Below, piece by piece: positions 28,488 through 50,765 of a stretch of DNA of 64,000 nucleotides. The notes below the pieces were generated by a model. That model was not told where the DNA came from and did no database searches. It saw only the letters and a list, made by a program, of their open reading frames with translations. Numbering within the stretch: the first letter of the stretch is position 1; the number at the start of each line of letters is the position of its first letter. Source of the DNA: Flavobacteriaceae bacterium (GTDB lineage: Bacteria > Bacteroidota > Bacteroidia > Flavobacteriales > Flavobacteriaceae); assembly GCA_017857815.1 (NCBI GenBank), contig JAFMCL010000001.1, positions 62,001 through 126,000 on the forward strand. The letters run 5' to 3'. The translations under genes were made by a program, and so were the position numbers.

Positions 28488-28562
28488 TCGGGGTGTAGCG
28501 TAGCCCGGTTATCGCGCCGCGTTTGGGACGCGGAGGTCGCAGGTTCGAATCCTGCCACCCCG
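28488..28562 (+). tRNA. tRNA-Pro(TGG), integration site of the island
   Basis: Acceptor CGGGGTG/CACCCCG, three-pair D stem GCG/CGC, anticodon stem CCGCG/CGCGG with loop TTTGGGA (anticodon TGG), T stem GCAGG/CCTGC, T loop TTCGAAT, discriminator A 28562. CCA is not encoded. The last 15 bases of the gene plus two following bases are repeated at 46706-46722, so the island restored a complete 3' end upon insertion. Confidence 0.96.
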
Positions 28563-28564
28563 AC
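28548..28564 (+). repeat. attL-type 17-bp direct repeat (tRNA-Pro 3' end)
   Basis: ATCCTGCCACCCCGACA, identical to 46706-46722. The flanking bases differ on both sides, so the identity is exactly 17 bp. It covers the T-stem 3' half, acceptor 3' strand and discriminator of tRNA-Pro(TGG), the classical crossover site for tyrosine integrases. Confidence 0.85.
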
Positions 28565-28568
28565 AGAA

Positions 28569-28589
28569 TGACGTCAAACAGACGTCTTT
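28569..28589 (+). terminator. Weak hairpin directly after attL
   Basis: GACGTC (28569-28574), loop AAACA, GACGTC (28580-28585), TTTT. It lies on island DNA and may now end the tRNA-Pro transcript. Confidence 0.45.
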
Positions 28590-28597
28590 TGATGGAT

Positions 28598-28643
28598 AAT
28601 CAAATGAAAATCAGGAATTTTCGTAATTCTTGGATTCATTTGA
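28598..28643. repeat. Long imperfect inverted repeat next to attL
   Basis: ATCAAATGAA (28598-28607) pairs perfectly with TTCATTTGAT (28634-28643), with a further imperfect inner stem. Lying between the att core and the integrase gene, it may be an arm-type recombinase or excisionase site, or a transcriptional hairpin. Confidence 0.45.
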
Positions 28644-28779
28644 TACCATTTCCAACCAATTTAAAGGTGACCTTTTTTGAACTAATAAAATCTTAGTTTT
28701 AGAACGCCGGAGCACATCGTTCTTCACACATCATTTTTTGGCTTTCGTTTAACTGATTTTTTAATCTAAAACGAAAGGT

Positions 28780-29299
28780 ATGCGTACTACAAAATCATTT
28801 GGAATCCATTTTTGGCTAAAACGTTCGAAACAACAAAAAGATGGCCATATACCCATTTATGGCAGAATCTCCGTTAATGGAGATAGGAAAGACTTTAGCT
28901 TAAGAAGATCCATTCTGGACAAACATTGGTGCTCACAAACGGGTAGGGCACTTCCGAAGACCAATATTTCAAAAACCTTGAATCCTCATCTGGATGAAGT
29001 GGCCACAGAAGTAAAAGAGTGCTATGAAAGTTTTGTTAAGACCAGGGAATTTGTAAGCGCTCTGCGGGTAAAGATGCGATTCTTAGGATTGGAAGGTGAA
29101 GTCGAAACCCTGCTAGATTTTATAAAACATCATCGAGATGAAGAATTAAAGAAATTGTAGCCGAGCACTTCAAAAAACGGTTTCCAAGCTCTTGGGTCAC
29201 ACTAAGTTGTCCACCACAAGAAAATATGCACGTGTCATTGAAAAGAAAATTAGCAATGATATGAATGCATTGAAACGGAAGCTGGAGATAAAAAATTAA
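28780..29299 (+). pseudogene. Tyrosine-type site-specific integrase remnant
   Basis: 28780-29160 encodes the N-terminal arm-DNA-binding domain (126 aa; MRTTKSFGIHFWLKRSKQQK, YGRISVNGDRKDFSLRR) and then stops. Directly after, in another frame (29159-29299), the extreme C-terminus of the same kind of enzyme appears: KTVSKLLGHTKLSTTRKYA, with the box II histidine (LGHTKLSTT) and the active-site tyrosine, then IEKKISNDMNALKRKL. About 200 residues holding the catalytic arginine and lysine are missing. It is therefore the island's own integrase after an internal deletion, and it cannot catalyse excision. Confidence 0.85.
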
Positions 29300-29531
29300 A
29301 GAAATTACGATTCAATTTATGAACCCAATAAAATTGAACTCAAGTGCCATTTGAGAGTGGTAAAATAATAAAGTGCGGACTGCCTGAAAAATATAAACTG
29401 CCAAAAAAGAGCCAATGAACGGGAGGGACCCAGTTCTAGACAAAACAAAAGTCTTGGGGTATTCACTTAGCATTTCTATTCTATCAGACCACTATCTAGA
29501 GCCTTGCGAATTGTGTAGTTGAAAAATTATA

Positions 29532-32500
29532 TCATGATTGATTATCTCTTAGAAACTTACTCGGGGCACAACCATATTTTTCCTTAAAACAGGTGCTAAA
29601 ATAACTCGGGCTTGAAAACCCGGTCATATCGCTTATTTCACTCAAATTGTAATGACTATTTGAAAGGAGTTGCTGTGCCTTGGTCAGTCTTATTGATCTT
29701 ACAAACTCGGTAACGGTTTGACCTGTCAATGCCGAGATTTTTCTGTATAGGACGGAATGGCTCATTCCAATTTCAGAAGCAAGCTCCGAAACGGAAAACT
29801 TAGAATTAGACATGTTCTCTTCTATAATACCCATTGTTTTTTCGACAAAGGTTTCATCCACATTGTTAAACGCAATATCGCCAGGCTTGATCAGTGTTTC
29901 CTTCCTGAACTTATCTCTTAAAACTTTCCTCGATCTGATCAGGTTTTTAACACGGGCCCCTAGGACATCGAGATAAAAAGGTTTGGTTACATAATCATCG
30001 GCTCCATATTCAAAACCCTCCATTTTAAATTCGTGCGAACCTCTTGCCGTCAAAAGAATAATAGGAATATGTGATGTCCTGTAATCCGATTTGATGGATT
30101 TGCACAATTCCAAGCCATTGAGTCTGGGCATCATGATGTCGGAAATAATAATATCCGGAATGACTTGGTAAACCTTTTCCTTTCCTTCCAGGCCATCTAT
30201 GCTTGTCAGTACCTTAAAACTTTTTGAGAAGTAGTCCTTGATGAGGGTCCTGATCTCAAAATTGTCCTCTACAAGCATGAGTATAGGTTTAGAGTCTGCA
30301 CTAGTTCCTGAAATCTCTGGTTCCAAAAGAAATTCATCTTCACCAATGGAATCCGGTAAAACATTTTTGGGATGCTTATCGACAATTTCCATGTCATTAT
30401 AAAATGACTTTTTAATCGGGATGATCATTTTGAACAGGGTATAAGAATTGGGCTCTGTTTTGACCACAATGGTTCCATAATGGATGTCTATAAGATTTTT
30501 GGTGATGGCCAAACCTATTCCCGTCCCGATAGAAAAGTTCGTACTATCTTCTGCCTGATAAAAGCTATCAAAAATTTTGTTGAGTTCATCTTCCTTTATT
30601 CCTAGGCCATTATCTTTTACTTTTATTACAAGCTGTTCATCTTTTTTATCCAAATCAATATTGACATCTATTTTGTCTTTGGCGAACTTAAATGCATTAG
30701 AAAGAATATTGTACATGATGATTTCCAGTTTATCAGTATCTAACCACCCTGTTTCACAGTTATTGGAAATCGATAGTTGAAACTTGACATTTTTCTCCTC
30801 GGCATATTGATAAAATGGTATACATAATTCTTTGAAGAAATGTTTAAAATTGATTTCTTGAACATTTAATTGTGCCTTTGTGGATTCCAATTTTCTAAAA
30901 TCCAGAATTTGATTTATCAAACTCAAAAGACGTTGACCATTTCTGTTCATTGTCATAATAAGACTGTACGCCCAATTATTTGTTTTCACCTTTGACAATT
31001 GATTTAATGGCGACAACAACAAGGTCAAGGACGTTCTAAGCTCATGGGAAATCGAAGTGAAAAAGTTAATTTTTGACCGGTGCAGTTCTTCATCCTTATC
31101 ATGTTTATATCTTTCTAGAAGAAGCTCATTTTTTAAGCGGAGCCGGTCCCTTATGCTTCCGTATATGTAGTAGGTCAGACTACCTGACAGTAGGAAATAA
31201 AGGAGATAGGCAAGTTTTGATTGCCACCATACCGGTGTGATTTTGATTACGATTTGTTTTTCGGAAACATAATCGGAATCGGAATTGTTTTCGTTATACG
31301 CTTTTACCCTAAAGGTATAGTTTCCATGTGGAATGTTCGAGTAGTTTGCAAAAGGAAACTCAGCTGGGGCGGTAATCCAACGGTCATCAATGCCATCCAG
31401 TTTGTACTGGTATTCTACGTTATGGGGGGTTTTATATTCAGGAACGGCAAATTCAAAACCAAAATTATTGAGGAAATGTGGTAGTTTTAAGGACGCCTTG
31501 TAGACAATTGAGGAATCCAAAGGCCGATATTTTTCAATGGTATCAAACACTTCGATAGCCTCATTGAATATTTTTAAAGTTGTTAGTTTCAGATTGATAG
31601 TTTTTTTATCATTTCTAAGTTGTTCAGGGTAAAACGAAACCAAGCCCTTTTTGCTTCCAAAAAAAAGTTGACCGTCCTCAGCTTTGGCATTGGCCCCAGA
31701 TTCAAAATCATTGGTCGGCAAACCATCATTGGTGTTATAGGATTGGATTTTGTCATTATTGATATTATAAGTAACAAGTCCATTATTTGTGCTGAACCAA
31801 TAATTATTGTTGGCATCCTGTATTATTCCATAAAATGAATCCGCAGGGAACCCCTTCTCTGAACTAATATTGTCAATGGAGTTTTTTTTTATGTCGAAAT
31901 AAAAAAGACCTCCTCCCTCGGTGCCTATCCACATCGACCCAAGATGGTCTTCATAAAAGTCCTTCACCGGAAAATCGATATTGCCTCCACCATCAATTAC
32001 CAAGTTCGATAGTGGATCAAATTTCCGAGTTTCTTGGTCATATATTTGGATTCCTTTGTCCAAAGTGCCGATCCATATTTTATTGAAAGAATCGGCAAAA
32101 ATGCTAAGAATGGTATTTGAACGTAAATTACCGTTTGTGTTAGTTTTTGTAAAATGTTGAAATTCAAAAGTTTTCTTATTGTATTTAAACAATCCATGAT
32201 TATAAGTTGCAACCCATATATTTTGTTTAGCATCTTCCAACATATCAAATATGGACAGTGCATAGAGTTCTTGGTCAAGTGAAGTAGCTATCTTGGCCTC
32301 CAGAAAGTCGTCTGAACTTTCTTCTTTAAAACCTATGATACTATTTCTGAAGTTACCCGTCCAAACATTTTTTTCAATATCCTCGAACACATTCATAACA
32401 ATGTTCGAAGGAATGGATGTATTATTGTTCGGGTCGTAGTCGTAATTCTTGAACATGTCCGTTTTCAGGTCAAACCTGTCCAAACCTGATGTGCCGGTAC

Positions 32501-33647
32501 CTACCCATAGATAGTTCGCTCCCATATATAATGATGTGACGACATTGGAACTTATGCTGTTTGAATCTTTTGACAATGAGGTCTGATAGATTTTAAAAGG
32601 CGTGGAAACTGTCTTGTTAACAGTTCCATCGTTCATTCCAAGCCAAAAGGTGTTGTTATCATCTATGAAAATACAGTACGAAAGATTATATGTAAGGCTC
32701 AAAGGGTCGTATATATCCCTTCTATAAACGCTGATTTTGTCGGTATCAATGTCGACCGAGTTCACTCCATTAAAGGTTGTCAACCAAATTTCCCCAGATT
32801 TGGAATATTTTATATCAGTAACATCATTGGTACTAATATTATTCGGAGAATCACCGCCCTTATAATGTTTAAACCTTTCCGTCTTGGTCTCAAACTTGTA
32901 CAGACCATCGCTTTCCGTCCCTATCCATACATTGTTCAAGGGGTCCAAACAGATTCGCTGCCCTGTTCTGGTGCTTTTATAATTCTTGTCGTTATAGGTA
33001 TAATGTGAAAATCTGTTGGTTTTTGTGTTCAATCTATCAAGTATTCCAACTCGCGTGGCAATCCATATTTCTTCCTCATCAATGGCTATGGAAAAAACAT
33101 AATCGTTACTGATGGTATTTTCAGCATATTCCTTTTGGGCATAATTAATCATTGAATCCTTGTTTTTATCAAAAACATACAATCCTTCCCCATAGGTGCC
33201 CATCCAAATAGTGTTGTCGTCATTACCTGTAATACAGGTTATGTAATTTTTTTTGTAGATGGAATTTTTCGTGTTCCTGTAGTTCAAAAAAGTCTCTGTT
33301 TTTGGATTGTACTTATTGATTCCTCCCTGCATAGTACCCACCCAAATGTAACCTTCATTGTCCTCGTAGATAGAAACAACATTATTGTTGCTGATGGAAT
33401 GGATATTATCGATATCGGTCTTGAATGCCTTAAATCGGTAACCATCATATCTATATAGGCCATGTGTACCCCCAAACCAGGTAAAACCCTCCCTGTCTTT
33501 CAATATGCAGTTGACTGAAGCAAGGCCATCTGCAACAACAAGCTCTTCAAATTTCAAGGAAAGCTCCTGGGAATAGGAAACTTTGGGTATTACAAGACTA
33601 TTGCCAAGCAATAATACTGATATCAACCACCTTATGCTCATATCCAA
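29532..33647 (-). CDS. Hybrid two-component sensor/regulator (HTCS) controlling the PUL
   Basis: 1371 aa, all HTCS modules in one chain: signal peptide (1-26), periplasmic propeller of repeated 'IWIGT..GL.....' blades (about 30-690), Y_Y_Y domain (about 735-805), one transmembrane helix (about 812-830), histidine kinase with phospho-His in SISHELRTSLTLL near 868, ATPase N/G boxes (NAFKFAKD, GLGIKEDE, GIGLAI), a receiver domain (LMLVEDNFEIR near 1124, phospho-Asp in IISDIMMPRLNG near 1169) and a C-terminal AraC helix-turn-helix (about 1285-1368). It senses a glycan fragment in the periplasm and activates the divergent susC operon. The usual proline of the H box (HELRTP) is serine here. Confidence 0.95.
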   Translation of the reverse strand: MDMSIRWLISVLLLGNSLVIPKVSYSQELSLKFEELVVADGLASVNCILKDREGFTWFGGTHGLYRYDGYRFKAFKTDIDNIHSISNNNVVSIYEDNEGYIWVGTMQGGINKYNPKTETFLNYRNTKNSIYKKNYITCITGNDDNTIWMGTYGEGLYVFDKNKDSMINYAQKEYAENTISNDYVFSIAIDEEEIWIATRVGILDRLNTKTNRFSHYTYNDKNYKSTRTGQRICLDPLNNVWIGTESDGLYKFETKTERFKHYKGGDSPNNISTNDVTDIKYSKSGEIWLTTFNGVNSVDIDTDKISVYRRDIYDPLSLTYNLSYCIFIDDNNTFWLGMNDGTVNKTVSTPFKIYQTSLSKDSNSISSNVVTSLYMGANYLWVGTGTSGLDRFDLKTDMFKNYDYDPNNNTSIPSNIVMNVFEDIEKNVWTGNFRNSIIGFKEESSDDFLEAKIATSLDQELYALSIFDMLEDAKQNIWVATYNHGLFKYNKKTFEFQHFTKTNTNGNLRSNTILSIFADSFNKIWIGTLDKGIQIYDQETRKFDPLSNLVIDGGGNIDFPVKDFYEDHLGSMWIGTEGGGLFYFDIKKNSIDNISSEKGFPADSFYGIIQDANNNYWFSTNNGLVTYNINNDKIQSYNTNDGLPTNDFESGANAKAEDGQLFFGSKKGLVSFYPEQLRNDKKTINLKLTTLKIFNEAIEVFDTIEKYRPLDSSIVYKASLKLPHFLNNFGFEFAVPEYKTPHNVEYQYKLDGIDDRWITAPAEFPFANYSNIPHGNYTFRVKAYNENNSDSDYVSEKQIVIKITPVWWQSKLAYLLYFLLSGSLTYYIYGSIRDRLRLKNELLLERYKHDKDEELHRSKINFFTSISHELRTSLTLLLSPLNQLSKVKTNNWAYSLIMTMNRNGQRLLSLINQILDFRKLESTKAQLNVQEINFKHFFKELCIPFYQYAEEKNVKFQLSISNNCETGWLDTDKLEIIMYNILSNAFKFAKDKIDVNIDLDKKDEQLVIKVKDNGLGIKEDELNKIFDSFYQAEDSTNFSIGTGIGLAITKNLIDIHYGTIVVKTEPNSYTLFKMIIPIKKSFYNDMEIVDKHPKNVLPDSIGEDEFLLEPEISGTSADSKPILMLVEDNFEIRTLIKDYFSKSFKVLTSIDGLEGKEKVYQVIPDIIISDIMMPRLNGLELCKSIKSDYRTSHIPIILLTARGSHEFKMEGFEYGADDYVTKPFYLDVLGARVKNLIRSRKVLRDKFRKETLIKPGDIAFNNVDETFVEKTMGIIEENMSNSKFSVSELASEIGMSHSVLYRKISALTGQTVTEFVRSIRLTKAQQLLSNSHYNLSEISDMTGFSSPSYFSTCFKEKYGCAPSKFLRDNQS

Positions 33648-33828
33648 TACAGTGTTTTCTAATGTAATGTAGTGATTTCAGGCCATTTACAAACCAGTGA
33701 CACGTTAAAATTCTAGCCTTAAAGGCAATTAGATTAAAAATTTAAAGTCTTTGACGAAAAATCAAAACTGCCATTGACGCCTCGCACCTAGTTTTATCAC
33801 AAATTAAATTAACTCAAATCGAAAGTAT

Positions 33829-36800
33829 ATGAAAAAACAAAATTTTAAAACAATTTTAACTCTGATTTTGATGTTTACGGCCATGGGTATGTTTGCACAA
33901 AATCAAATCAATGGCAAAGTTGTGGATGATTCCGGTCAACCACTGCCTGGAGCCAGTGTCGTTGAAAAAGGGACTGCGAATGGAACACAGTCCGATTTTG
34001 ACGGGAACTTTACAATTACAATATCGGATGAGAATGCCGTTCTTGTAATTTCTTATGTAGGCTTTGATACACAAGAAGCTCCTGTTGCAGGGCAAACCAA
34101 TATCAATGTGACGTTAAAAGAAGATGCGGCCGCTCTTGAAGAGGTGGTGGTAGTCGGGTATGGGACAAAAAAGAAAGTGAATATAACCGGGGCAGTAACG
34201 TCCATAGGAATTAAGGATATTGAGAACAGACCTGCACCAAATGTATCGACGTTGTTGGCTGGGCAAGTACCAGGTTTGTCCGTCATACAACAATCGGGAA
34301 GACCAGGTCAAAGTCAAGGTACATTTAGAATTAGAGGTATTGGAACATTAGGTAATTCCGATCCTTTGATTTTAGTTGATGGAATTGTTGGTGATTTGCA
34401 AGATATTGATGTAAACGATATTGAAAACGTTTCGGTATTAAAGGATGCATCCGCTGCAATATATGGGGTAAGGGCTGCCAATGGGGTAATTTTGGTCACC
34501 ACAAAAAGAGGTCGCTCAGGAGTTCCTGTAGTTTCTTATCATGGAGGAGTTGGCACCCAACAGGCATTTAAAGTACCGGATAGGGTCAACTCATACGACT
34601 ATGCAAGGTTGTATAATGAGGCCCTGACCAATGATGGTGGATCACCTTTGTTTTCGGATGATGACCTTGCCAAGTTCAGAGATGGAACGAGCCCACAAAC
34701 CCATGCGGATATCGATCATTTCGAGAAGCTATTAAAAAGCGGTAATCCAATAAAGAAATTTCATAATATCAGTGTATCGGGTGGTACGGAAACTACAAAA
34801 TACAACCTTTCGTTTGGGTATCTGGATGAAGGCTCTTTGATTAAAACCTTTGGATACGATAGAAAGAATTTTCGTGTCAATATTGACCAAAAAATAAATG
34901 ATAGATTGGATGTCGGTGTAAAGCTTGCCGGATCCTTTGGTAAAACATTCGGTAATATTCAGTCCGTAGGTCAGATTATTACGGAGTCCTATCGAGAATT
35001 TCCGGGAGAAGTGGACCAGTTTGAAAACGGCCTTTGGAAAAACATGCAGGAGTTTGGCGTAGGGCAAAGAAATATGCTGGCCTATTTGGAATTGCCTTTA
35101 GGGACCGATGTAGATAGAAACAATGATTATGTAAGTACCGTTTTTGCCGAATTCAAAATCACGCCAGAATTAAAGTTGAAAGGTCAATTTGCAGCAAGAA
35201 ATGACAATAGACTTCAAAATAGAAAAAGAGATGTCGTACAGTGGCATAGGTACGATGCTGCGACAGACACATACAATGGTAGCAATATTGCAAGTGGATA
35301 TTTGATTCGAAGAAATGAAACCGTCTGGGACTATACTTCCAATCTACTTTTGACTTACGAAAAATCATTCAATGACCATAAATTAGAAGGGTTGTTGGGT
35401 TTTGAACAGCGAGATCGTAATTGGTCTTTTAGTCAAGCCGCAAGGTTTAGTCTTTCTTCTAGTAATGAATTAACTGAATTAAATGGGGTTGCAGATGGGA
35501 GTGATCGGGGAGAAGGTAATTCTACAGATTATAAGTTAAGATCTGCATTTGGAAGAATTAATTATAATTTTAAGGACACCTACTTTTTTGAAGGTATTTT
35601 AAGATATGATGGGACTTCCAGGTTTGCTAAAGAGAATAGATTTGATTATTTCCCTTCATTTTCTGGAGGATGGAAAATTTCCCAAGAAGATTTCTTTACA
35701 TCTGAAACTATTAGTCATTTAATGTTAAGAGGTTCATGGGGGATATTGGGGAATCAGGAAATAGGGGATTATCAATTCCTAAATACCTTTGGTCCGAGAG
35801 ATAATTACAATTATACCTTTGGAAGCAATTCGAGTAATGGTGTCCTCGAAAATGGGACTTTGGCAAATCCGGAAATTCTATGGGAAACCACCACTGCTAC
35901 CAACATTGGTGTCGATGCAAGATTGTTCAGCAATTCCTTATCTGTTACCGCTGAATATTTCATAAAAACTACCGATGATATTCTCTTAGGATTGGATCAA
36001 CCCTACATTTTAGGGGCAAAAAACCCACCCACGGTTAATGCAGGATCTGTTGAGAACAAAGGATGGGAGTTTAACCTAGGCTATAATGGCGGAATAAATG
36101 ATGGTTTTCATTACTATGTAAATGCGAATGTCGGTTACGTAAAAAACCAAATAACCGATTTAAAAGGAACCGAAAGACCTGGAAAGGATATTGGAGATCC
36201 TATACAAAATATATTTGGATATGTATCCGATGGATTGTTCAATTCGCAAACCGAGATTGATGCAGCGCCAACACATAATATTGCTGGGACCCCCGAGCCG
36301 GGTGATGTTAAATACAAGGACATCAACGGGCGCGATGCAAACGGAGAGTTAACAGGTCTACCTGATGGGGTAGTAGACGCTGATGACCGAAAATCATTGG
36401 GAACTTATTTCCCAAAGTATAATTTTGGACTAAATCTGGGATTCGATTGGCATAATTTGGATTTCTCTATGGCATGGCAAGGTTTTGCAGGTCACAAGGT
36501 TTTGACCGATGGACCAACGGTACGTCCTTTCTGGGGTGGGAATGCTCCACCATCACAACATATGGTAGATAATTTCTGGACCCCTTCGAATACAAATGCG
36601 GACTTCCCTAGATTAGGAATTTCAAATCAAGGTAGAAATTACCAAGCAAGTACGTATTGGGTTAACAATGGTGATTTTGCCAAGTTAAGAAACATGCAAA
36701 TAGGCTACACCTTGCCTAGTGATGCTTTAACCACCATAGGAGTGACCAGGTTTAGAATATATGTGTCCGGTGAAAACCTTTTATACATTTCTAAACTTAA

Positions 36801-36903
36801 AGATATAGATCCTGAATTTGCCCATGGAAATGGTTTTGCTTGGAATAACAATAACTATCCGACCAACAGACAGTTCCTTTTAGGGTTTAACATAACATTC
36901 TAA
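33829..36903 (+). CDS. SusC/RagA-type TonB-dependent outer membrane transporter
   Basis: 1024 aa. Signal peptide (1-23, MFAQ), carboxypeptidase-regulatory-like domain (about 26-105), TonB-contact region [15 protein letters not shown] near 102-116, plug domain with [11 protein letters not shown] and [29 protein letters not shown], then a 22-strand barrel ending in ...LLGFNITF with the terminal phenylalanine of outer membrane proteins. With SusD it forms the glycan uptake complex powered by TonB. It is divergent from the HTCS gene across 181 bases and three bases upstream of susD. Confidence 0.96.
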   Translation: [1024 protein letters not shown]

Positions 36904-36906
36904 AAA

Positions 36907-38505
36907 ATGAAAAAAATGAAAAAAATGAAAAAAATAATCATACTATATATCATATTGGCTATTGGAATTACAAGTTGTAACGACGAGTTTTTTGATGTTG
37001 GTCCAGGTGATAAATTAACCGGTGTGTCCTTTTGGAAAACAGAAAAGGAAGCTTCTGATGCACTAACAGCTGCCTACGCTACTTTTTCGGAACGAGGAAG
37101 TGTTTTGAGTACCTGGAATACTTATCTTTTTGCCGCCGGGACCATGTCAGATGATGCGACAGGCACCTACAACAGCTTTCAAGATGGGTCTGTTGGGCCA
37201 ACAGATGATACAGTAGGAGATCTCTATAAAGAACTGTATAGTAATATTAGGGTCTGCAATGTTTTTTTAGCAAATATTGATAGACCTGAGATGGATGAGG
37301 CTTTGCGCAATAGGTTTATTGCAGAAGCAAGATTCATCAGAGCCTTCCATTATTCCATATTGAGAAATAATTGGGGCGGTGTACCACTTATTACAGAACC
37401 TCTGACCACATCTGAATTAAACGTTCCAAGGGCGTTGGCAGAAGAAATAACAACCTTTATTTCCACAGAATTAACGGCAGCTGCAGCAGATTTACCCGTG
37501 TCATATGGTGCCAATGACCTGGGAAGGGCAACAAAAGGAGCCGCGCTGACCTTAAAAGCCCGTGCACTGCTATATGCAGGAAGCCATACCGAAGCGGCGT
37601 CAACGGCCCAGGACGTAATGGCTTTGGGGTATGATCTTTTTCAAGATGGAAATGGAGAAGGATATTTGAATGTTCATCAAAAACCGAATGAAGATAATCA
37701 GGAAGTTATTTTTGCAGTAAGGTATAACAACCCTGATACATTCCATTGGTATTTGGTTAGGGTATATCCTCCCAACCATACACATCCAGGAGGTGAAAAT
37801 GGGGCCGTAAAAATATCACAATCGTTCGTAAATGCTTTTGAAACTACAGACGGAAAAACCATTGACGATGTCACATCCATATTTGATCCTTTGAATGAAT
37901 TTGATAACCGAGATCCTAGATTAAATATGGCGGTCTTAAAAAAAGGAGATGTTCTTTCCGGAAATCCTTTAGCAGGAAGTACAGTTGATGCCTCAAATAA
38001 TACCGGGTATTATGCCCGAAAATTGATACAGGATGAAGACTTTCACGGATGGGATAGATACGATAGGGATATTGTATTAATGCGTTACGCGGAAGTTTTA
38101 TTGATTTATGCCGAGGCAAAAATTGAAAGCGGTTCAACTGATCAATCGGTTTTAGATGCCATCAATGATGTTAGGGCCCGAGCCTATGGTACGGTCCGCA
38201 CAGATACTGCTAATTATCCTGCCATAACAACAACGGATCAAAGTGAACTCCGCGAAATTATTAGAAGGGAACGTCGTGTAGAATTGGGAATGGAACATGG
38301 AGATCACAGACTTAATGACATCCGTAGATGGAATATAGCTGAGACCGTATTAAATGGGGATTTAAACGGTGCAATTGATGATGCTACAGGGGATTATCGG
38401 TTCATAAAGAGATTAAGTTTTGATGCTTCCAAACATTATTTGTGGCCAATTCCCCAAAGAGAAATAGATTTATCCGATGTATTGAATCAAAATCCCGGAT
38501 ATTAA
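36907..38505 (+). CDS. SusD/RagB-type surface glycan-binding lipoprotein
   Basis: 532 aa. Lipobox GITSC (Cys about 24), followed by the SusD tetratricopeptide fold: FIAEARFIRAFHYSILRNNWGGVPLI near 138-162 and the C-terminal RRERRVELGMEHGDHRLNDIRRW near 456, ending LNQNPGY, a typical SusD tail. It captures oligosaccharides and acts as the lid of SusC. The start has three successive in-frame ATGAAAAAA units (36907-36933), so any of three ATGs could be used. A terminator follows at 38532-38570. Confidence 0.96.
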   Translation: MKKMKKMKKIIILYIILAIGITSCNDEFFDVGPGDKLTGVSFWKTEKEASDALTAAYATFSERGSVLSTWNTYLFAAGTMSDDATGTYNSFQDGSVGPTDDTVGDLYKELYSNIRVCNVFLANIDRPEMDEALRNRFIAEARFIRAFHYSILRNNWGGVPLITEPLTTSELNVPRALAEEITTFISTELTAAAADLPVSYGANDLGRATKGAALTLKARALLYAGSHTEAASTAQDVMALGYDLFQDGNGEGYLNVHQKPNEDNQEVIFAVRYNNPDTFHWYLVRVYPPNHTHPGGENGAVKISQSFVNAFETTDGKTIDDVTSIFDPLNEFDNRDPRLNMAVLKKGDVLSGNPLAGSTVDASNNTGYYARKLIQDEDFHGWDRYDRDIVLMRYAEVLLIYAEAKIESGSTDQSVLDAINDVRARAYGTVRTDTANYPAITTTDQSELREIIRRERRVELGMEHGDHRLNDIRRWNIAETVLNGDLNGAIDDATGDYRFIKRLSFDASKHYLWPIPQREIDLSDVLNQNPGY

Positions 38506-38531
38506 AAATAGGTTTTCATATTAGTTTAGTT

Positions 38532-38570
38532 GGAGAGGCCTTAGGTGTTCCATCTCAGGCCTTCTCTTTT
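38532..38570 (+). terminator. Terminator after susD
   Basis: GGAGAGGCCT (38532-38541) pairs, with a bulge, with AGGCCTTCTC (38557-38566), then TTTT. It separates the susCD transcript from the enzyme genes; partial read-through is likely in PULs. Confidence 0.65.
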
Positions 38571-38858
38571 CTACGAGTTTTATTGCGTTCACTCTCCAAA
38601 GATTCAATAAAGTATAAAAATTTCTCATAAAAAATGAATCTATGATACGTATCGAGGGAAAGATTACGGAAATATCACAGTAGAGTAAAGGTCAGTATGG
38701 AAAAGGAACTCGCCAAACCCAACAAGCCATTCATTTCTAACGTCGTTTCAGGGGTTGTCCATCCCTTTAGCTATAAAGGCCTAGTGGCTTTAACATCTGG
38801 GGTATACACCCTTAGATGTTCAAACAAAAATGAAATATTATTTATAAAAATCCGAAAA
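38571..38858 (+). other. Leader region before the GH109 gene
   Basis: 288 bases without a plausible gene: an open frame from 38697 has no family-like N-terminus and merely extends the GH109 gene upstream of its signal. A 10-bp hairpin (ACATCTGGGG with wobble pairs, 38793-38819) lies 40 bases before the ATG and could stabilise or attenuate the second transcript. No clear TAnnTTTG box was found. Confidence 0.4.
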
Positions 38859-40268
38859 ATGAAACAACGCAATTCTAGAAGAAAATTTCTAAAGAACAGT
38901 ACTTATGCCAGTGCATTTTTGGGCATGTCAGCCTGTGGGGTATATCAAAAGAAGGCAGAAATGACCGCCAAAGACGTTCTGGCAGAAATTACAAAAAAGC
39001 GGCCTTCGACGAATACTTCGGTAATGGGGCTAAAGGTAGATCCCATCAAAAAGGTGCGTATTGCCATGATCGGGTGCGGTGACCGCGGTCTTGGGCTACT
39101 GTACCAGTTCAATGCGCTATGTCCTGATATGGCCACCATTGTGGCCTTATGCGATGTTCGTGAAAAAATGGTGCAGCGTTCGGTCGATTATTTAAGAGAA
39201 CATGGTAACGAACGCCCTCAAACCTATACAGGAAGCCTAACAGCTTGGAAAGAAATGGTGGAACGGGACGATATAGATTTCGTTATTGTGGCAACACCTT
39301 GGGAAGATCATGTTCCCATGAGTGTTTACGCTATGCAACAGGGAAAGCATGTTGGTGTCGAAGTGCCTGCTGCATATACCTTGGAAGGTTGCTGGCAACT
39401 CGTTGATACCGCTGAAGAAACGCAACGGAATTGCATGATGCTCGAAAACGTTTGTTATGGGGATGAGGAAATGTGGTTGTTGAATATGGCCCATGCCGGG
39501 GTTTTTGGTACGCTCAACTATGCAGAGGCCGCCTATATCCATGACTTAAGAGCAGGACTGTTCAACAATGCAACCTACAACAACTGGCGTATGCAGCATC
39601 ATATCGTCCGAGACGGTAATCTCTACCCGACCCACGGACTTGGGCCCGTAGCCCAATATATGGATATTCAGAGGGGAGATAAGTTCGAATATCTGGTCTC
39701 CATGAGCAGCCCCCAGAGTGCATTGTCAGAATATGCACGTACAGTTGATGCAGACAACGAATTTCACGACCGCACCGATTTTGCACATGGCGACATGAAC
39801 AATAGTCTTATAAAAACCAACAAGGGTCGGTCAATATTGGTGCAGCATGATGTGGTCACACCACGGCCTTACGACCGAAAAAATGTGTTGTCAGGAACAA
39901 AAGGGTATCATCAGGGTTACCCCAGTAAAATGTCATTGGATGGCCATGGTCATCATTTCCTTGAAGGCAAGGCTTATGAAAAACTAAGACAAACATATAG
40001 GCATAGCATGTGGAACAGGCTACAGGAGCGTATTGACCGGCATAAAGGAGGGCATGGTGGAATGGACTTTGTCATGGCCTATCGGATCATCGAATGCTTT
40101 AACAAAGGAATTGCCCTAGACCAGGATATTTACGACGGGGTGGCCTGGTCAGTGGTAGGACCGCTATCCAAAATTTCCATCGAAATGGGTAGTTCCCCGG
40201 TACCCTTTCCTGATTTTACCAGAGGCAAATGGGAAGAGAAAAGGAGATTGGAAATTATAGAATCATAA
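38859..40268 (+). CDS. GH109-type NAD-dependent glycosidase (alpha-N-acetylgalactosaminidase family), exported
   Basis: 469 aa from ATG 38859, chosen because it gives a twin-arginine-type leader (NSRRKFLKNSTYASAFLG) with a possible lipobox SAC. Gfo/Idh/MocA fold with NAD loop IGCGDRGLG near 69. Motifs shared with the characterised GH109 enzymes as I recall them: EVPAAYTLEGCW, ENVCYG, HDLRAGLFN, YPTHGLGP, GHGGMDF and a C-terminal SVVGPLSKIS...PDFTRGKW. GH109 enzymes cleave alpha-GalNAc through a transient NAD-mediated oxidation at C3. It is 12 bases before the next hydrolase gene. GalNAc specificity is inferred from family; related members have other activities. Confidence 0.85.
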   Translation: MKQRNSRRKFLKNSTYASAFLGMSACGVYQKKAEMTAKDVLAEITKKRPSTNTSVMGLKVDPIKKVRIAMIGCGDRGLGLLYQFNALCPDMATIVALCDVREKMVQRSVDYLREHGNERPQTYTGSLTAWKEMVERDDIDFVIVATPWEDHVPMSVYAMQQGKHVGVEVPAAYTLEGCWQLVDTAEETQRNCMMLENVCYGDEEMWLLNMAHAGVFGTLNYAEAAYIHDLRAGLFNNATYNNWRMQHHIVRDGNLYPTHGLGPVAQYMDIQRGDKFEYLVSMSSPQSALSEYARTVDADNEFHDRTDFAHGDMNNSLIKTNKGRSILVQHDVVTPRPYDRKNVLSGTKGYHQGYPSKMSLDGHGHHFLEGKAYEKLRQTYRHSMWNRLQERIDRHKGGHGGMDFVMAYRIIECFNKGIALDQDIYDGVAWSVVGPLSKISIEMGSSPVPFPDFTRGKWEEKRRLEIIES

Positions 40269-40280
40269 TCCAGTTTGTCA

Positions 40281-42473
40281 ATGATGTTCAGAAAACTGGT
40301 TTTGGTTTTATTACTGTTTGTTTGTATTGGGTGGGCACAGCAGCCTTGGCAACCTCAAAAATATGTGGTAGAAGAAAATAAGGTTGAAAATAAATTAACC
40401 CTCTCAACTCCATATTACACATTTGTCCATAATCTAAAACAAGGCGGTGCCCTAGAGAGAATATCCCTTAATCATGGCGTGGAAAAGAATCTACTATTGA
40501 CCCCAATTTCAGCCAATTTAGGTTTAAAGCGTGAAAAGGAAGATCCCCCGGCATCTTGGTACGATGGAGGTGTTAAAAAATACAGCACTGCCAATGATAC
40601 GTTGCCAGAATATCGGTTAGAGGAAGTCAAAGGATGGCCCGTATTAACAATATTGTCCAATTTTAGGAACAGTAATTTTCAATCTGTAGGGGTTAGACTA
40701 AAAACCAAGTACACCTACAAATGGGGTTATGTGAAGATACACCACGAAGTTATTTTTCCTGAATTGCCAAAAAAAGTCAGTTACCTAGAGATTATGTCTA
40801 CAAAATTGGCTCCCAGTTTGGACCATTATGGATATATCCCAGGAGTGTCCGAGGCCACCTCAATGGATAACCTTTTCGGCTGGGAAGGGTCTCATGTAAG
40901 GCAATGGGGAAGAATCAGGCCCGGCACTCATTTTGATTTGCCCCTAAAGTTGAGGAATCTACCAAGATATGCGGTTTTTGCAAATCATGGAAAAGAAGGA
41001 TTGGAATGGTTTTCAGCGGATGACCTCTCCCAATGGAATTATCAACTTACCGGGGAATCGGGAACAGGACTGTTCAAAGTAGCTCCAACTTTTGATCCCA
41101 TTGGTATTTCCTTGAGCATACAGCCCCTTAATTTGGGCACGCGATACGATTTGCCGAAGGGAGGATACGCCAAACTCTCGGGTACGTATGAGTTCGACTA
41201 TTACCTAGGGGTTCCAATCATTACAGGAAAGGCCAACAAGCCCTTGATGGACTTTGGATTTAGGGTAAATGAAGGCAAATGGCTATCGAAAGAAAGAATA
41301 AATGAACTTTCCGAGAAGGGCATCGGGCACATGACGTTACACAACGATGGTCCTACCAAAAGTGGTTTGTTTTGGGCCGATGGCAGTTATCCCCCATATC
41401 CTCCTAAAGAAATGAAAAAAATGGATAGGACCATCGAGAATATCCATAGAGCGGGGTTGACCACAATTCCATATTTCTCAAATCACGAACTTCACCCCTC
41501 TACCCCGGAATTTAAGCAATTTGGAAAGGAATGGGGCAGAATGGTAGATGATCAGGGCAATCTGCGGCCTAATTTTCATTTTGGGGTACATATGTGCCTG
41601 AAGTCTGGGTGGAAAGAGTTTTTCAAGCATTCGGTAGATACCGTTTTGACCAATCATGATTTTGATGGTGTATACTACGACTGGAACGTACCCTTGTTTT
41701 GCGGCAATTCACTCCATGTTGACTCCAAGGATAAAATAAAAGTAGATTCAAAGGGTCTGGCAGCTATATCTGACAACCGTTATACCCATTGGGACGTGGA
41801 CGAGTTGATAGAACTAATGGAATGGACAAGGGCCAAGGTTGGAGCCGACGGAATCATTAACATTCATAATACCCTAATGCCAATGTTTGCCACCGAAAAT
41901 TTTGCAAACAACGTGGTCGGAATGGAATTTACCTATGGGGTGTTGACAAAATCAATGCCCCACCCTTCACAACTTCCGTTGGAATGGAGCTTTGGTGGCG
42001 CCAGGCCTAGAGGTGTAATCACATATGGAACGTTGCATCCCGAAGCATCCAAAACCTTAAAGGAAAGTTTTGCAATAACTGCGTTAATGACTGGTGTATT
42101 TCCATGGCGGGCAACAGACGAAAGTCTAAAAGCCTTTAAGATATTGGAACTCATTGAAGATATTGAAACCTATACCTTCCAAGATTATCGCAACAGCACA
42201 GTGGATATTTTGTCCAAGCAGGGAATTTCCGCTGTTTATAGTAAAGAGGATAAGGCATACATCCTACTCGCGAACCCTAGCGGCAATTCAGCCATCTTGG
42301 ATTACAATATTAACCTGGAGAACCTACCGTTCCCAATACCCAAAGCAACTAATTTGAGGGTCTTGGATTTGGATAGAATTGATCAGAGGGTGTTCAAAAC
42401 TCTTCAGCCCAATGGGAAACTTGAATTGAAAAGTAATGAAATAATGATAGTTAAAATGACAGTTGAAAAATGA
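40281..42473 (+). CDS. Secreted TIM-barrel glycoside-hydrolase-like protein, family unassigned
   Basis: 730 aa from ATG 40281 (a TTG six bases earlier is less likely). Signal peptide ends near GWAQ. The first half is beta-rich (sugar-binding/super-sandwich-like); the second half is a TIM-barrel with HNDGPTKSGLFWADGSYPPY near 354, NHELHPSTPEF near 408, DFDGVYYDWNVPLFCGN near 462 and INIHNTLMPMFATENF near 530, ending with a beta-sandwich. The DGVYYDW aspartates are placed like a clan GH-D/GH101/GH129 nucleophile, but no family could be assigned by eye. Located between GH109 and the sugar-activation genes, it probably cleaves the main chain or side group of the target glycan. Confidence 0.75.
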   Translation: MMFRKLVLVLLLFVCIGWAQQPWQPQKYVVEENKVENKLTLSTPYYTFVHNLKQGGALERISLNHGVEKNLLLTPISANLGLKREKEDPPASWYDGGVKKYSTANDTLPEYRLEEVKGWPVLTILSNFRNSNFQSVGVRLKTKYTYKWGYVKIHHEVIFPELPKKVSYLEIMSTKLAPSLDHYGYIPGVSEATSMDNLFGWEGSHVRQWGRIRPGTHFDLPLKLRNLPRYAVFANHGKEGLEWFSADDLSQWNYQLTGESGTGLFKVAPTFDPIGISLSIQPLNLGTRYDLPKGGYAKLSGTYEFDYYLGVPIITGKANKPLMDFGFRVNEGKWLSKERINELSEKGIGHMTLHNDGPTKSGLFWADGSYPPYPPKEMKKMDRTIENIHRAGLTTIPYFSNHELHPSTPEFKQFGKEWGRMVDDQGNLRPNFHFGVHMCLKSGWKEFFKHSVDTVLTNHDFDGVYYDWNVPLFCGNSLHVDSKDKIKVDSKGLAAISDNRYTHWDVDELIELMEWTRAKVGADGIINIHNTLMPMFATENFANNVVGMEFTYGVLTKSMPHPSQLPLEWSFGGARPRGVITYGTLHPEASKTLKESFAITALMTGVFPWRATDESLKAFKILELIEDIETYTFQDYRNSTVDILSKQGISAVYSKEDKAYILLANPSGNSAILDYNINLENLPFPIPKATNLRVLDLDRIDQRVFKTLQPNGKLELKSNEIMIVKMTVEK

Positions 42474-42752
42474 ACAGGACAGCTTATCTATTGGCCAGCA
42501 TTCTGATAATGGTTGTAGGATGGTAGAAGTGAAAAAGTCAAAGGAATGGACGTCAAAGAACTGACCATGCTGATGCATGATATACTAAAATGTGAACAGG
42601 CCATCAATCTGGATGGTGGAGGATCCTCAACCATGTGGATTAGAGAACAACCTTTCAATGGGGTGGTCAACTACCCCACTGACAACAATAGATATGACCA
42701 TGAGGGTTCAAAGAGTAAATCGATGGCATTGATTCTAACACCCAAGAATTAA
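42470..42752 (+). pseudogene. Phosphodiester glycosidase (NAGPA-like) remnant
   Basis: An ATG overlapping the stop of the preceding gene (42470) starts a signal peptide (MNRTAYLLASILIMVVGW) ending at a TAG. In another frame, starting right at this stop, lies the C-terminus of a NAGPA phosphodiester glycosidase: DGRSEKVKGMDVKELTMLM and the signature INLDGGGSSTMW, to TAA at 42752. About 200 central residues are gone. The intact enzyme uncovers phosphodiester-linked GlcNAc or related groups, so the ancestral PUL may have targeted a phosphate-bearing glycan. Confidence 0.75.
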
Positions 42753-42756
42753 GAGA

Positions 42757-43483
42757 ATGGAAAAGGTGATCCTACTTGTCTATTTTTTTCTATTGCTCTT
42801 TTCCTCAAACAAACTAGGGAGCTTTGAAAAAGTTGAATCCTAAAACCTACATGGTGAAAAAAATCAATTTCCAAAACATTGAACCATCTAAAATCTTCGA
42901 AGATAGTATTTGGACCTCAGCCAATGTATTGGAAGATTTTTCTCAACCTTGGTCAAATGCCGATTCCCCGAAAACAAAGTTCCTGACCCTGCACAATGAC
43001 CAGTTTTTGTTCCTAAGGTTTGATGTCGAAGATAACAATGTACTTATACATAAAGAATCAGAGGATAAAATGAACGTAGCGCAGTCCGATAGAGTTGAAA
43101 TCTTTTATAGGGAGAATAAGAAAATGGATTCTTACTTCTGTCTGGAAGTTGACCCCAACGGTCGGGTTTTGGACTACGCTGCCTCGTTTTACAGGAAGTT
43201 TAATAATAATTGGGTTTGGCCAAAAGACCATATTCTCACTACTGGAAAAAAGTATTTAAACGGGTATAAGGTTTATATAACCCTCAGCATACAATCGTTG
43301 AGGGATTTAAGAATAATGATAAAAAACAAAATCCAGGTAGGTATTTACCGCGGAGATTGCAAATCGTTACCATCTCGAAAACAAAAAGAAGCTGAAATCA
43401 ATTGGATTTCGTGGGTGACCCCTAAAACCGAAAGGTCTGATTTTCATGTGTCATCTTCCTTTGGAATACTGACCTTGGAGTGA
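42757..43483 (+). pseudogene. CBM9-like carbohydrate-binding protein, frameshifted at the signal peptide
   Basis: ATG 42757 opens a good signal peptide (EKVILLVYFFLLLFSS) but ends at a TAA near 42843. The body, in the next frame from about 42824 to 43483 (about 215 aa), is a carbohydrate-binding/DOMON-like beta-sandwich similar to family 9-like modules (FEDSIWTSANVLEDF, FLTLHNDQFLFLRFDVED, QSDRVEIFYREN, CLEVDPNGRVLDY, WVTPKTERSDFHVSSSFG). One base change in a homopolymer (T7 at 42782-42788 or A5 near 42827) would join both. Without the signal it would stay in the cytoplasm. Sequencing error or real decay; other PUL genes here are also broken. Confidence 0.6.
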
Positions 43484-43513
43484 ATATCAAATCCAAACAC
43501 TATAAAATAAATA

Positions 43514-44623
43514 ATGCTAGTTGAACAAAAAATTAATATGCAAAAAATCATTTCCAGGGCCCCGGCACGAACCTGCCTATTTGGGGATCACCAAGACTAT
43601 CTAGGACTTCCGGTGATTGCTTGTGCGATCAACAGACATATTACCCTTGATGCCGTACGGAATGGTTTGGAAAAATTCGTAATTCATATGCCAGACATGG
43701 GAGAAGTACGAACCATTTCAATAGATCCTTCGATTGACAGGGTGGAAAAAGGAGATCACCTATTGGCCGCCCTGAAAATTTTGGAGGACTATGGATGCAT
43801 CCCTACGACAGGGTACGATATTACCATAAGGGGAAATATTGCCATCAATGCAGGTACATCAAGCTCAAGTGCTGTCGTGGTGTCTTGGATACAGTTTCTA
43901 ATCGAGGCCTTTGGTTGTAACCAAATTGTTGACAAAGAGTTCATTTCTCAATTGGCCTACCACTCAGAGGTGAGCTTTCATGGAGCTCCAGGAGGTAAAA
44001 TGGATCAATACAGTATTGCCATCGGGCATATCATTTTTCTTGAAACCGGAGAAAATACGACCTATGAGGTATTCGATAAACCATTAAAGGGATTGATAGT
44101 GGCAGAATCTGGAATACCCAAACAAACTGCAGGTGTGCTTGCGGAGCTTAAGGAAAAAGCCTTGCTGGCAATTCATATTGTTAAGCAACAAATCCCTGAA
44201 TTTAACATCTCAGAGGTTACCAAGAAAGAACTGCCAAAATACTTGAACTACATTTCAGACGACTTGAAAACATATTTAAGAGCTACCGTTTTGAACCATG
44301 ATATTACCCAACGTGCCTTACAGGAGTTTAGAAAATCACGACTTCGCCCGATGGAAATAGGAAAGTTGATGAATGAACATCATCAGGTGCTTAAAGAATA
44401 TTTGAAATTGACGGTTCCTAGAATTGACGATATGATTACCGGTGCAATTCAAGCGGGGGCATTGGGCGCCAAGATAGTAGGATCGGGCCGTGGAGGAAGC
44501 ATCGTAGTATTAGCTCCCAAAGGGAAAGAGGAAACGGTTATAAAAGCATTAATGGATGCCGGGGCTAAAGATGCGTATAAAGTAAACGTGGATCCGGGTG
44601 CAAGAATCGAAATTATAAAATAA
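43514..44623 (+). CDS. GHMP-family sugar-1-kinase (galactokinase-like)
   Basis: 369 aa; an internal ATG at 43538 (MQKIISRAPART) may be the real start. Motif 1 ARTCLFGDHQDYLGLPVIA matches the galactokinase signature in position, with GDH for GEH; motif 2 NIAINAGTSSSSAVVV near 115 and motif 3 IVGSGRGGSIVVLAP near 325 complete the GHMP fold. Such kinases add phosphate to C1 of a hexose. It is followed within 8 bases by a nucleotidyltransferase and then by an epimerase, so the sugar is probably turned into a nucleotide sugar. GalNAc, galactose or GlcNAc are candidates; the sequence cannot separate these. Confidence 0.85.
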   Translation: MLVEQKINMQKIISRAPARTCLFGDHQDYLGLPVIACAINRHITLDAVRNGLEKFVIHMPDMGEVRTISIDPSIDRVEKGDHLLAALKILEDYGCIPTTGYDITIRGNIAINAGTSSSSAVVVSWIQFLIEAFGCNQIVDKEFISQLAYHSEVSFHGAPGGKMDQYSIAIGHIIFLETGENTTYEVFDKPLKGLIVAESGIPKQTAGVLAELKEKALLAIHIVKQQIPEFNISEVTKKELPKYLNYISDDLKTYLRATVLNHDITQRALQEFRKSRLRPMEIGKLMNEHHQVLKEYLKLTVPRIDDMITGAIQAGALGAKIVGSGRGGSIVVLAPKGKEETVIKALMDAGAKDAYKVNVDPGARIEIIK

Positions 44624-44630
44624 CAATATA

Positions 44631-45521
44631 ATGACAAAACATTTGAATTTAGTGATTTTGGCAGGTGGTGCATCCTCCAGAATGAAAAAACCTGTCGATC
44701 CCGACAATTCCAATCTTACCGAAGAAGAAGTTCAACAGGCGAATGAAAGAAGCAAAGGGCTTATTTCGGTAGGTTCCGAGGGTAGGCCATTATTGGATTA
44801 TGTATTATTTAATGCTAAAAAAGCGGGTTATAAAAAAATTTATATCGTCATAGGCGAAGAAGGAACCCTGTTCAAGGAATTTTATGGCAACAAAGATAGG
44901 GACAACAACTTCAAAGGGTTGAGCATCTCCTTTGCAACGCAGTACATTCCTGAAAGTCGGGAAAAACCATTCGGAACGGCTGATGCTCTTTTCCAGACCG
45001 TAGAGCAGTATCCTGAACTGAATTCACAAATGTACACGGTCTGTAATAGTGACAACCTTTACTCGGTAGTGGCATTTGAGGCCTTAAGAAATACGGTCAG
45101 TCCCAATGCCTTTATCAGCTATGACCGGGATGCCTTGGATTTCCCATCGGAACGCATTCAACGTTTTGCGCTGGTGAAGTTGGATGAATTTGGCTATTTG
45201 TTGGATATCATTGAAAAGCCTTCCGAGTTCGAAACTTCGCAATATGCCGATAGGTATGGAAAACTAAGGGTCAGTATGAACATTTTCAAGCTTGCAGGCA
45301 GTTTGGTATACCCTTATCTTAAAAACTGCCCGATACATCCAATAAGAAATGAGAAGGAACTACCTACGGTTCTATTGAATACATTGAAAGACCATCCAAA
45401 AACGGCCATTGGTATCCCACTGTCAGAGCATGTTCCCGACCTCACGGCCAAGGACGATATTGTTGTTGTCAAGGAATATTTGGAAAAAAACTATCCAGTA
45501 TTGGATTGGGAAAATGCATAA
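44631..45521 (+). CDS. Sugar-1-phosphate nucleotidyltransferase
   Basis: 296 aa. Rossmann-like NTP transferase: nucleotide loop VILAGGASSRMKKP (about 7-20), GLISVGSEGRPLLDYVLFNA near 44, metal-binding aspartate in CNSDNLYS near 139, DIIEKPSEFE near 189. An insertion of about 20 residues (DPDNSNLTEEEVQQANERS) sits between the loop and the lysine of SKGLI. It would couple the 1-phosphate made by the upstream kinase to UTP (or another NTP), releasing pyrophosphate. One base separates it from the epimerase. Confidence 0.85.
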   Translation: MTKHLNLVILAGGASSRMKKPVDPDNSNLTEEEVQQANERSKGLISVGSEGRPLLDYVLFNAKKAGYKKIYIVIGEEGTLFKEFYGNKDRDNNFKGLSISFATQYIPESREKPFGTADALFQTVEQYPELNSQMYTVCNSDNLYSVVAFEALRNTVSPNAFISYDRDALDFPSERIQRFALVKLDEFGYLLDIIEKPSEFETSQYADRYGKLRVSMNIFKLAGSLVYPYLKNCPIHPIRNEKELPTVLLNTLKDHPKTAIGIPLSEHVPDLTAKDDIVVVKEYLEKNYPVLDWENA

Positions 45522-45522
45522 A

Positions 45523-46443
45523 ATGGATAAATATCTAATTACGGGAGGTGCTGGATTCATAGGGAGCCATATTGCCGAGCAGCTTTCCAGCCACGGATAT
45601 GAAGTGGTCGTATTGGACAGTCTACGAACCGGTTTCAAAAGGAACATCCTCAACTTAAATGTACAGTCTGTTGAGGGTAGTATTCTTGACAAAGCGTTGC
45701 TAGCTGAGTTGGCTCAAGGAACCAAGGCCATATTCCATTTGGCCGCCTTGGTTAGCGTTCCCGAATCTTTGGAAAAGATCGAGGACTGCATATCCATAAA
45801 TACAATGGGAACCATCAATGTACTGGAAGCTGCAAAACAGAATCAAGATTGCAAAGTTGTACTTTCGAGCTCGGCGGCAAATTATGGCGATGATCCTGAA
45901 TTGCCCAAGGTCGAATCCATGATACCCAAGCCGATGACTCCTTATTCCATTACAAAGTTGGATGGAGAGTATTACCTCAAAATGTATCAAGAGCAATGGG
46001 GCGTACCGACAACTTCTTTGCGTTATTTCAACGTTTTCGGGCCACGCCAAAATCCAAAGTCGGCTTATGCCGCCGCAGTTCCTATTTTTATTGAAAAAGC
46101 TTTGCGAAACGAACCCTTGACCATTTACGGAGATGGTCAACAGACCCGGGATTTTATATATGTAAAAGACGTCGTAAAAGCCAATATCCATGCCTCTTTG
46201 GTAGGAGATGAAACGTATAATGTTGCCCTTGGCCAAAGTACTTCCATATTACAACTGGCGGAAAATATCATAGACATTACAAATTCCAAATCCCAAATAA
46301 AATATTTAGCCGAACGCCCTGGAGATATTAAACATTCGCAAGCGGATGTCACAAAGTTCAAAAAGTTAGGGTTCAGACCAGAATATAGCCTAGAAGAAGC
46401 CCTAACCGAAACCATTGAATATTATGCCAAAATAATTACATAA
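45523..46443 (+). CDS. NAD-dependent sugar-nucleotide epimerase (GalE/WbpP-like)
   Basis: 306 aa from ATG 45523; an ATG at 45514 is possible. Extended SDR with NAD motif ITGGAGFIGSHIAEQL, SSSAANYGDD near 117 and catalytic YSITK near 143 (YxxxK), then RYFNVFGPRQNP near 168 and GDGQQTRDFIYVKDV near 203. The ancestor type epimerises C4 of UDP-sugars, and WbpP-type members prefer N-acetyl sugars. Following a kinase and a nucleotidyltransferase it would convert the imported UDP-sugar, for example UDP-GalNAc to UDP-GlcNAc. Substrate is inferred. Confidence 0.88.
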   Translation: MDKYLITGGAGFIGSHIAEQLSSHGYEVVVLDSLRTGFKRNILNLNVQSVEGSILDKALLAELAQGTKAIFHLAALVSVPESLEKIEDCISINTMGTINVLEAAKQNQDCKVVLSSSAANYGDDPELPKVESMIPKPMTPYSITKLDGEYYLKMYQEQWGVPTTSLRYFNVFGPRQNPKSAYAAAVPIFIEKALRNEPLTIYGDGQQTRDFIYVKDVVKANIHASLVGDETYNVALGQSTSILQLAENIIDITNSKSQIKYLAERPGDIKHSQADVTKFKKLGFRPEYSLEEALTETIEYYAKIIT

Positions 46444-46453
46444 GAATAATATC

Positions 46454-46507
46454 ATGATAGATCTAAGTACGCTCGATTATTCAATAATTTTCGGCCATAA
46501 TGAGTAA
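46454..46507 (+). pseudogene. 5' stub of a sodium/solute symporter
   Basis: Ten bases after the epimerase stop, an ATG starts MIDLSTLDYSIIFG-HNE-stop. 'STLDYSIIFG' is like the first residues of SSS symporters (compare FLDYLIFVVYAI of the symporter at 14455 in this window). The rest of the gene is gone, with a junction near 46493. The PUL probably once ended in a transporter for the released monosaccharide. Confidence 0.45.
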
Positions 46508-46705
46508 TGTTGATTTAAAAATAGAAATACAGCCAATTTCTCCTAGGTAATTTTTTTGATCTTTTTTGTTTTCTTTTGGCAGAATTCCATATTTTTGGCC
46601 CGAAAGAAGGTCTGAAAAGGCTGTTCAGGGTGCCTTAAAAGGTGCCCCATTGAAGAAACTGATTTATAAAATTTTGATTATGAGGCGGTTGGAAGAGGAC
46701 TTAGG
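46508..46705. other. Right-end island DNA without a recognisable gene
   Basis: 198 bases up to the right att repeat. An open frame from 46566 runs through the att repeat into tRNA-Pro(GGG) and is not credible. It may be a scrap of a gene removed in the same deletion that cut the symporter. Confidence 0.4.
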
Positions 46706-46722
46706 ATCCTGCCACCCCGACA
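46706..46722 (+). repeat. attR-type 17-bp direct repeat
   Basis: ATCCTGCCACCCCGACA, exact copy of the 3' end of tRNA-Pro(TGG) at 28548-28564, not part of any complete tRNA here. It marks the right island boundary, 18 bases before tRNA-Pro(GGG). Confidence 0.85.
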
Positions 46723-46740: not shown

Positions 46741-46814
46741 CGGGATGTGGCGCAGCCTGGTAGCGCACACGCATGGGGTGCGTGGGGTCGCAGGTTCAAA
46801 TCCTGTCATCCCGA
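46741..46814 (+). tRNA. tRNA-Pro(GGG)
   Basis: Acceptor CGGGATG/CATCCCG, D stem GCGC/GCGC, anticodon stem CACGC/GCGTG with loop ATGGGGT (anticodon GGG), T stem GCAGG/CCTGT, T loop TTCAAAT, discriminator A 46814. Before island insertion it would have been the tandem neighbour of tRNA-Pro(TGG) and is now separated from that gene's promoter by 18 kb. Confidence 0.94.
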
Positions 46815-50758: not shown

Positions 50759-50765
50759 AGAACTC

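Follow-up and report, generated by a model that had tools for sequence, protein, structure and literature searches.

Mobile genetic elements of gut Bacteroidetes carry 47 described SusC/SusD loci (PMC6907783), and the B. thetaiotaomicron PUL BT4240-50 encodes a GH109 together with a type of GalNAc kinase different from the one considered here (PMC11992087). Among marine Bacteroidota, movement of PULs is usually inferred from gene trees. We analysed a 64-kb stretch of a Flavobacteriaceae genome (hereafter the window) and its relatives, in which an insertion can be traced from its borders and empty site to a dead integrase and to live-looking relatives sharing the tRNA; this makes the transfer route directly testable. 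Among the results listed by searches of the open-access literature, none was a publication on a tRNA-Pro PUL element.

Very probably, an integrative element inserted at tRNA-Pro(TGG) gave rise to this locus, leaving a genomic island whose cargo is a PUL and whose integrase has since decayed. A sequence-only reading of the window had proposed an 18-kb island of this kind, and the repeat, empty sites, integrase remnant, and gene content all support it. Like the gut elements, the island is SusC/SusD cargo on an integrated element; unlike them, it sits at tRNA-Pro, its integrase is dead, and its cargo is a PUL only. With BT4240-50 it shares a GH109 alpha-GalNAcase, SusC/SusD, and a GalNAc kinase (predicted in the island) within one locus. 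BT4240-50 alone has a phosphotransferase-type kinase, an extra GH2, and an M60-like protease, whereas the island has a GHMP kinase, a nucleotidyltransferase, and an epimerase instead. This is a known kind of island; the most interesting part is a tRNA-Pro element family with interchangeable cargo. The features, all located by position in the window, are:

28489..28564, + strand: tRNA-Pro(TGG), integration site, whole at the island's left end (ARAGORN)
28549..28565, + strand: left att copy, ATCCTGCCACCCCGACA (exact repeat)
28780..29160, + strand: integrase remnant, N-terminal arm-binding domain (Arm-DNA-bind_5; PF17293, 6.6e-12; 34% to G036 integrase residues 1-142)
~29174..29299, + strand: integrase remnant, C-terminal tyrosine-box fragment in a different frame (66% over 38 aa, G036 integrase residues 376-413)
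29532..33647, - strand: hybrid two-component regulator (HTCS), 1371 aa
33829..36903, + strand: SusC-type TonB-dependent importer (TIGR04056, 1.8e-283)
36907..38505, + strand: SusD-type lipoprotein (PF07980, 1.5e-48)
38697..40268, + strand: GH109, probable alpha-N-acetylgalactosaminidase (6t2b, 2.2e-105)
40275..42473, + strand: DUF6259 protein, putative glycosidase, 732 aa (PF19773, 1.9e-7)
42519..42746, + strand: NAGPA (phosphodiester glycosidase) gene remnant, 76 codons (67% over 76 aa to the Wocania gene)
42824..43483, + strand: CBM9-like carbohydrate-binding protein (PF06452, 2e-11)
43514..44623, + strand: GHMP sugar kinase, probable GalNAc 1-kinase (galactokinase and GalNAc kinase relatives)
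44631..45521, + strand: sugar-1-phosphate nucleotidyltransferase (PF00483)
45523..46443, + strand: UDP-sugar 4-epimerase, WbgU/WbpP-like by homology; start codon approximate
46706..46722, + strand: right att copy, ATCCTGCCACCCCGACA (exact repeat)
46741..46815, + strand: tRNA-Pro(GGG), tandem partner of tRNA-Pro(TGG) in relatives (tRNA prediction)

Both borders of the island carry a direct repeat matching the tRNA 3' end. The 17-bp sequence ATCCTGCCACCCCGACA is exact in its two copies, allows no extension on either side, and corresponds to the tRNA-Pro(TGG) 3' end and one further base. The sequence-only reading had placed the right copy correctly and the left one a base too low (28548-28564); its match of the 17-mer to the tRNA 3' end is confirmed by the exact repeat and the tRNA coordinates. 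In the entire 2.2-Mb genome the 17-mer occurs twice, at the two island borders, against an expected count of 3.7e-5 from base composition, and is thus no common genome repeat. Measured core to core, the island spans 18,157 bp. Joining the window flanks in silico produced a tRNA-Pro(TGG)/tRNA-Pro(GGG) pair with a 19-nt spacer, the tandem that had been anticipated for the excised state. No second att copy or nested island was found past tRNA-Pro(GGG) in the window. Misassembly in the source draft genome (55 contigs) keeps a residual probability, although the 17-bp repeat is too short to cause it easily.

Relatives preserve the uninterrupted arrangement. A search for the tRNA in 60 relatives recovered the tandem TGG/GGG pair in seven members of the genus (G011, G009, G012, G010, G007, G001, and G017), as the sequence-only reading had foreseen, with a spacing of 31–38 nt where ~18 had been predicted. 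The best empty site is that of G011, in which both flanks are syntenic around the tRNA pair. Its left flank holds the gene at 24719, LysR, PadR, and PspC (57–70% protein identity for PadR and PspC, mostly 85–93% for the rest), and its right flank ThuA, sulfatase, DUF6807, Gfo/Idh, GSDH, cytochrome c, DivIC, ParA, and ParB (mostly 85–96%), with ~2.6 kb of other genes separating the tRNA pair from ThuA. The flanks in G009 and G012 are consistent with this arrangement at lower identity. Since the joined window flanks match the tandem arrangement of the relatives, the most plausible reading of the island is insertion within the lineage of the window.

Base composition also sets the island apart. 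The baseline was the window flanks only, at 36.1% G+C compared with 39.7% in the island, and GC3 is raised in the island genes (0.31–0.46 vs 0.31 +/- 0.03; Mann–Whitney p = 0.0003). The exceptions are SusC and SusD, at background GC3, and the HTCS, at background overall G+C.

The integrase gene adjoining tRNA-Pro(TGG) survives as a remnant. The reference for it is an intact 426-aa integrase behind tRNA-Pro(TGG) in another Flavobacteriaceae genome, G036, whose two ends are matched by the two fragments; the remnant noticed just inside the tRNA by the sequence-only reading is therefore genuine. Judged from its sequence, the island integrase is dead because ~230 residues, including most of the catalytic core, are gone between the fragments. 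The island thus has neither an intact integrase nor transfer and replication genes: no excisionase or mobilisation gene was found in it, nor any match to an RteC/HTH17/DnaC-like module.

We propose that a tyrosine recombinase recombined an element, from a donor we infer, with the last bases of tRNA-Pro(TGG). An ancestral tRNA-Pro(TGG)-tRNA-Pro(GGG) pair would have been split in this way, with an intact tRNA at the left end and a 17-bp copy at the right end. The integrase would derive from a family of tRNA-targeting recombinases that inserts comparable elements carrying other cargo at the tRNA-Pro(TGG) of various Flavobacteriaceae. Because its catalytic core is lost and no replication or transfer gene is left, the island would now be fixed unless another integrase acts on it. 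As a decayed element, it is therefore probably no longer self-moving.

Two alternatives bear on this history. The PUL might be old and native at the site and have been lost from the relatives, for example by recombination between the two short repeats. Such a loss would produce an identical empty site, most of the genus genomes are incomplete MAGs, and the HTCS, SusC, and SusD genes lie near background in overall G+C or GC3. Native origin is nonetheless very improbable: the tandem arrangement is common to seven relatives, the near relative G011 among them; the locus has an integrase remnant and an att copy; and no close copy of the island SusC was found in any of the 21 genus genomes. Only slightly more credible is that the island is still mobile through an integrase gene at another locus of the genome. 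In favour are two intact att copies and nine Phage_integrase hits in the genome, but none of the loci retrieved around these hits matched the remnant, and the island's want of an excisionase or mobilisation gene also counts against mobility in trans. Insertion followed by decay of the integrase remains our preferred reading.

Adjacent SusC and SusD genes, glycoside hydrolases, and a regulator identify the cargo as a PUL, and gene annotation confirms that it is the island's sole cargo. As predicted from these genes, it would provide a sensor, a SusC/SusD importer, GH109, a second putative glycosidase, a binding protein, and three sugar-activation enzymes. No relative of the second putative glycosidase, the DUF6259 protein, emerged at the thresholds used from 300 genomes of the family or 395 of the phylum; a pattern scan of genome contigs and a PDB sequence search were likewise empty. 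Homologs retrieved by the DUF6259 profile gave no phmmer match to the island protein. Its structure model, built without homologs, had a pLDDT of 33.

The PUL core has orthologs in an uncultured Flaviramulus (L092; SusC 87%, SusD 86%, GH109 75%) and in Wocania arenilitoris (L093; HTCS 69%, SusC 77%, SusD 79%, GH109 78%, CBM9 49%), so that SusC is shared at 77–87%, SusD at 79–86%, and GH109 at 75–78% identity. These loci differ in the other enzymes that flank the core, with GH20, NAGPA, and a phosphorylase-family gene in Wocania, and no tRNA was found near either core PUL in the sequence compared. The island retains a 76-codon piece of NAGPA, which the Wocania PUL has in full; by this sequence comparison, the island PUL is therefore remodelled. 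The sequence-only reading had called the PUL complete, a description that needs amending in that the NAGPA remnant (42519–42746) reveals remodelling. Its further view of glycan metabolism as moving in a single unit is borne out only in part because the Wocania and Flaviramulus versions have another gene complement.

The substrate is likely an alpha-GalNAc glycan. The GH109 is close to the characterised alpha-GalNAcase 6t2b, an enzyme of solved structure (2.2e-105), and the epimerase falls near WbgU and WbpP, which are UDP-HexNAc 4-epimerases. The island epimerase has a serine at the position that we take to set substrate size in WbpP. From the enzyme families, the most parsimonious route would lead from GalNAc to GalNAc-1-P, UDP-GalNAc, and UDP-GlcNAc, with the kinase, nucleotidyltransferase, and epimerase most likely acting in that order on released GalNAc. 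A single insertion would thereby be tied to a whole probable GalNAc pathway of uptake, release, activation, and epimerisation. The island could be as described and the activated sugar another, such as galactose or a uronic acid; we consider this unlikely, if far from negligible. The kinase and nucleotidyltransferase lack a close characterised relative, and a related pair elsewhere in the genome lies beside sulfatases, both of which leave room for another sugar. Against it stand the closeness of the GH109 to a characterised alpha-GalNAcase, the position of the epimerase near UDP-HexNAc epimerases, and the addition to the Wocania PUL of GH20 and NAGPA, both typical HexNAc enzymes. GalNAc thus stays our preferred assignment.

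The second kinase–nucleotidyltransferase pair of the same genome (G000:C24, L078, 7611–9519) is ~50% identical to that of the island and is located among sulfatase-like genes. Related pairs also occur elsewhere in the phylum, some of them adjoining an epimerase ~51–54% identical to the island's. At three loci in other Bacteroidota (L082, L083, and L084), genes for a GHMP kinase, a nucleotidyltransferase, and an epimerase lie near each other. This clustering suggests a widespread UDP-sugar route.

Beyond the sequence-only reading, our comparison revealed an element family at the same tRNA, in which at least one member combines an intact integrase with a different PUL. Integrases similar to the G036 enzyme were detected in 87 of 240 Flavobacteriaceae genomes (E <= 1e-70), and a tRNA gene lay upstream in 28 of the 30 loci examined. 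All seven of the most similar integrases (>=84% identity, G036 included) have tRNA-Pro(TGG) ~0.2 kb upstream; other loci have tRNA-Arg, -Asp, -Lys, or -Pro. Six of the seven, from six other genera, repeat the same 16-bp att core 17–30 kb downstream, with an RteC, HTH17, and DnaC-like module in between, and appear to be intact elements. The island has the same 16-bp core and its integrase remnant begins 215 bp behind the tRNA, compared with ~207 bp in the family, but it does not have the RteC/HTH17/DnaC-like module. In the integrase tree the remnant is on the tRNA-Pro side (97/96 split), on a long branch and with 40% of columns. By its site and remnant, with the module missing, the island appears to belong to a broader group of elements that target tRNA-Pro and that carry PULs in some cases and other cargo in others.

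The closest parallel is the G036 element (C303; L099/L138), whose contig ends before any right att site. It shares with the island the same tRNA-Pro(TGG), the same left-end 16-bp core, a related and similarly placed integrase, and a PUL that adjoins the integrase and includes its own sugar kinase. It differs in having an intact integrase, an RteC/excisionase/DnaC-like module, and a fructan PUL, which lies between integrase and RteC and comprises a sensor, a sugar transporter, two GH32 genes, SusC, SusD, a PfkB-type sugar kinase, and a LacI regulator. Wocania has a decayed element at its tRNA-Pro(TGG), in which the integrase is truncated and SusC is split; SusD and a fragment of the DnaC-like gene are also present, and no right att site was found. 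At least two elements from other genera at this tRNA, those of G036 and Wocania, hold other sugar gene sets. Other family members carry unrelated cargo, for example a decarboxylase with a cytochrome assembly protein, or a secreted peptidase. A 19.3-kb element at tRNA-Pro(TGG) in G031 (C24; L037/L038) has a 26-bp repeat, restriction/defence-type cargo, and an intact but more distant integrase. We tentatively suggest, while regarding it as somewhat doubtful, that these elements form a widespread, tRNA-Pro(TGG)-specific family acting as an exchangeable platform, in which a slot behind the integrase takes either other genes or entire self-sufficient PULs with sensor, importer, enzymes, and sugar kinase, and a PUL stays fixed once the integrase decays.

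The tRNA-Pro genes form a hotspot, with further variation among relatives. Inserts between the tRNA pair in G005 (2.1 kb), G019 (0.9 kb), and G025 (6.2 kb) had no extra repeat and were rejected as family elements. The near relative G018 (C10, C29; L035/L043/L044) carries cargo of its own and an integrase of another type at these tRNA-Pro genes, and its tRNA-Pro(GGG) is duplicated 6.6 kb apart with an att-like sequence ahead of each copy. To the right of tRNA-Pro(GGG) in the window, positions 46891–54737 hold ThuA, sulfatase, DUF6807, two Gfo/Idh, and GSDH genes, a block kept in relatives that differ in its distance from the tRNA and in the presence of the sulfatase.
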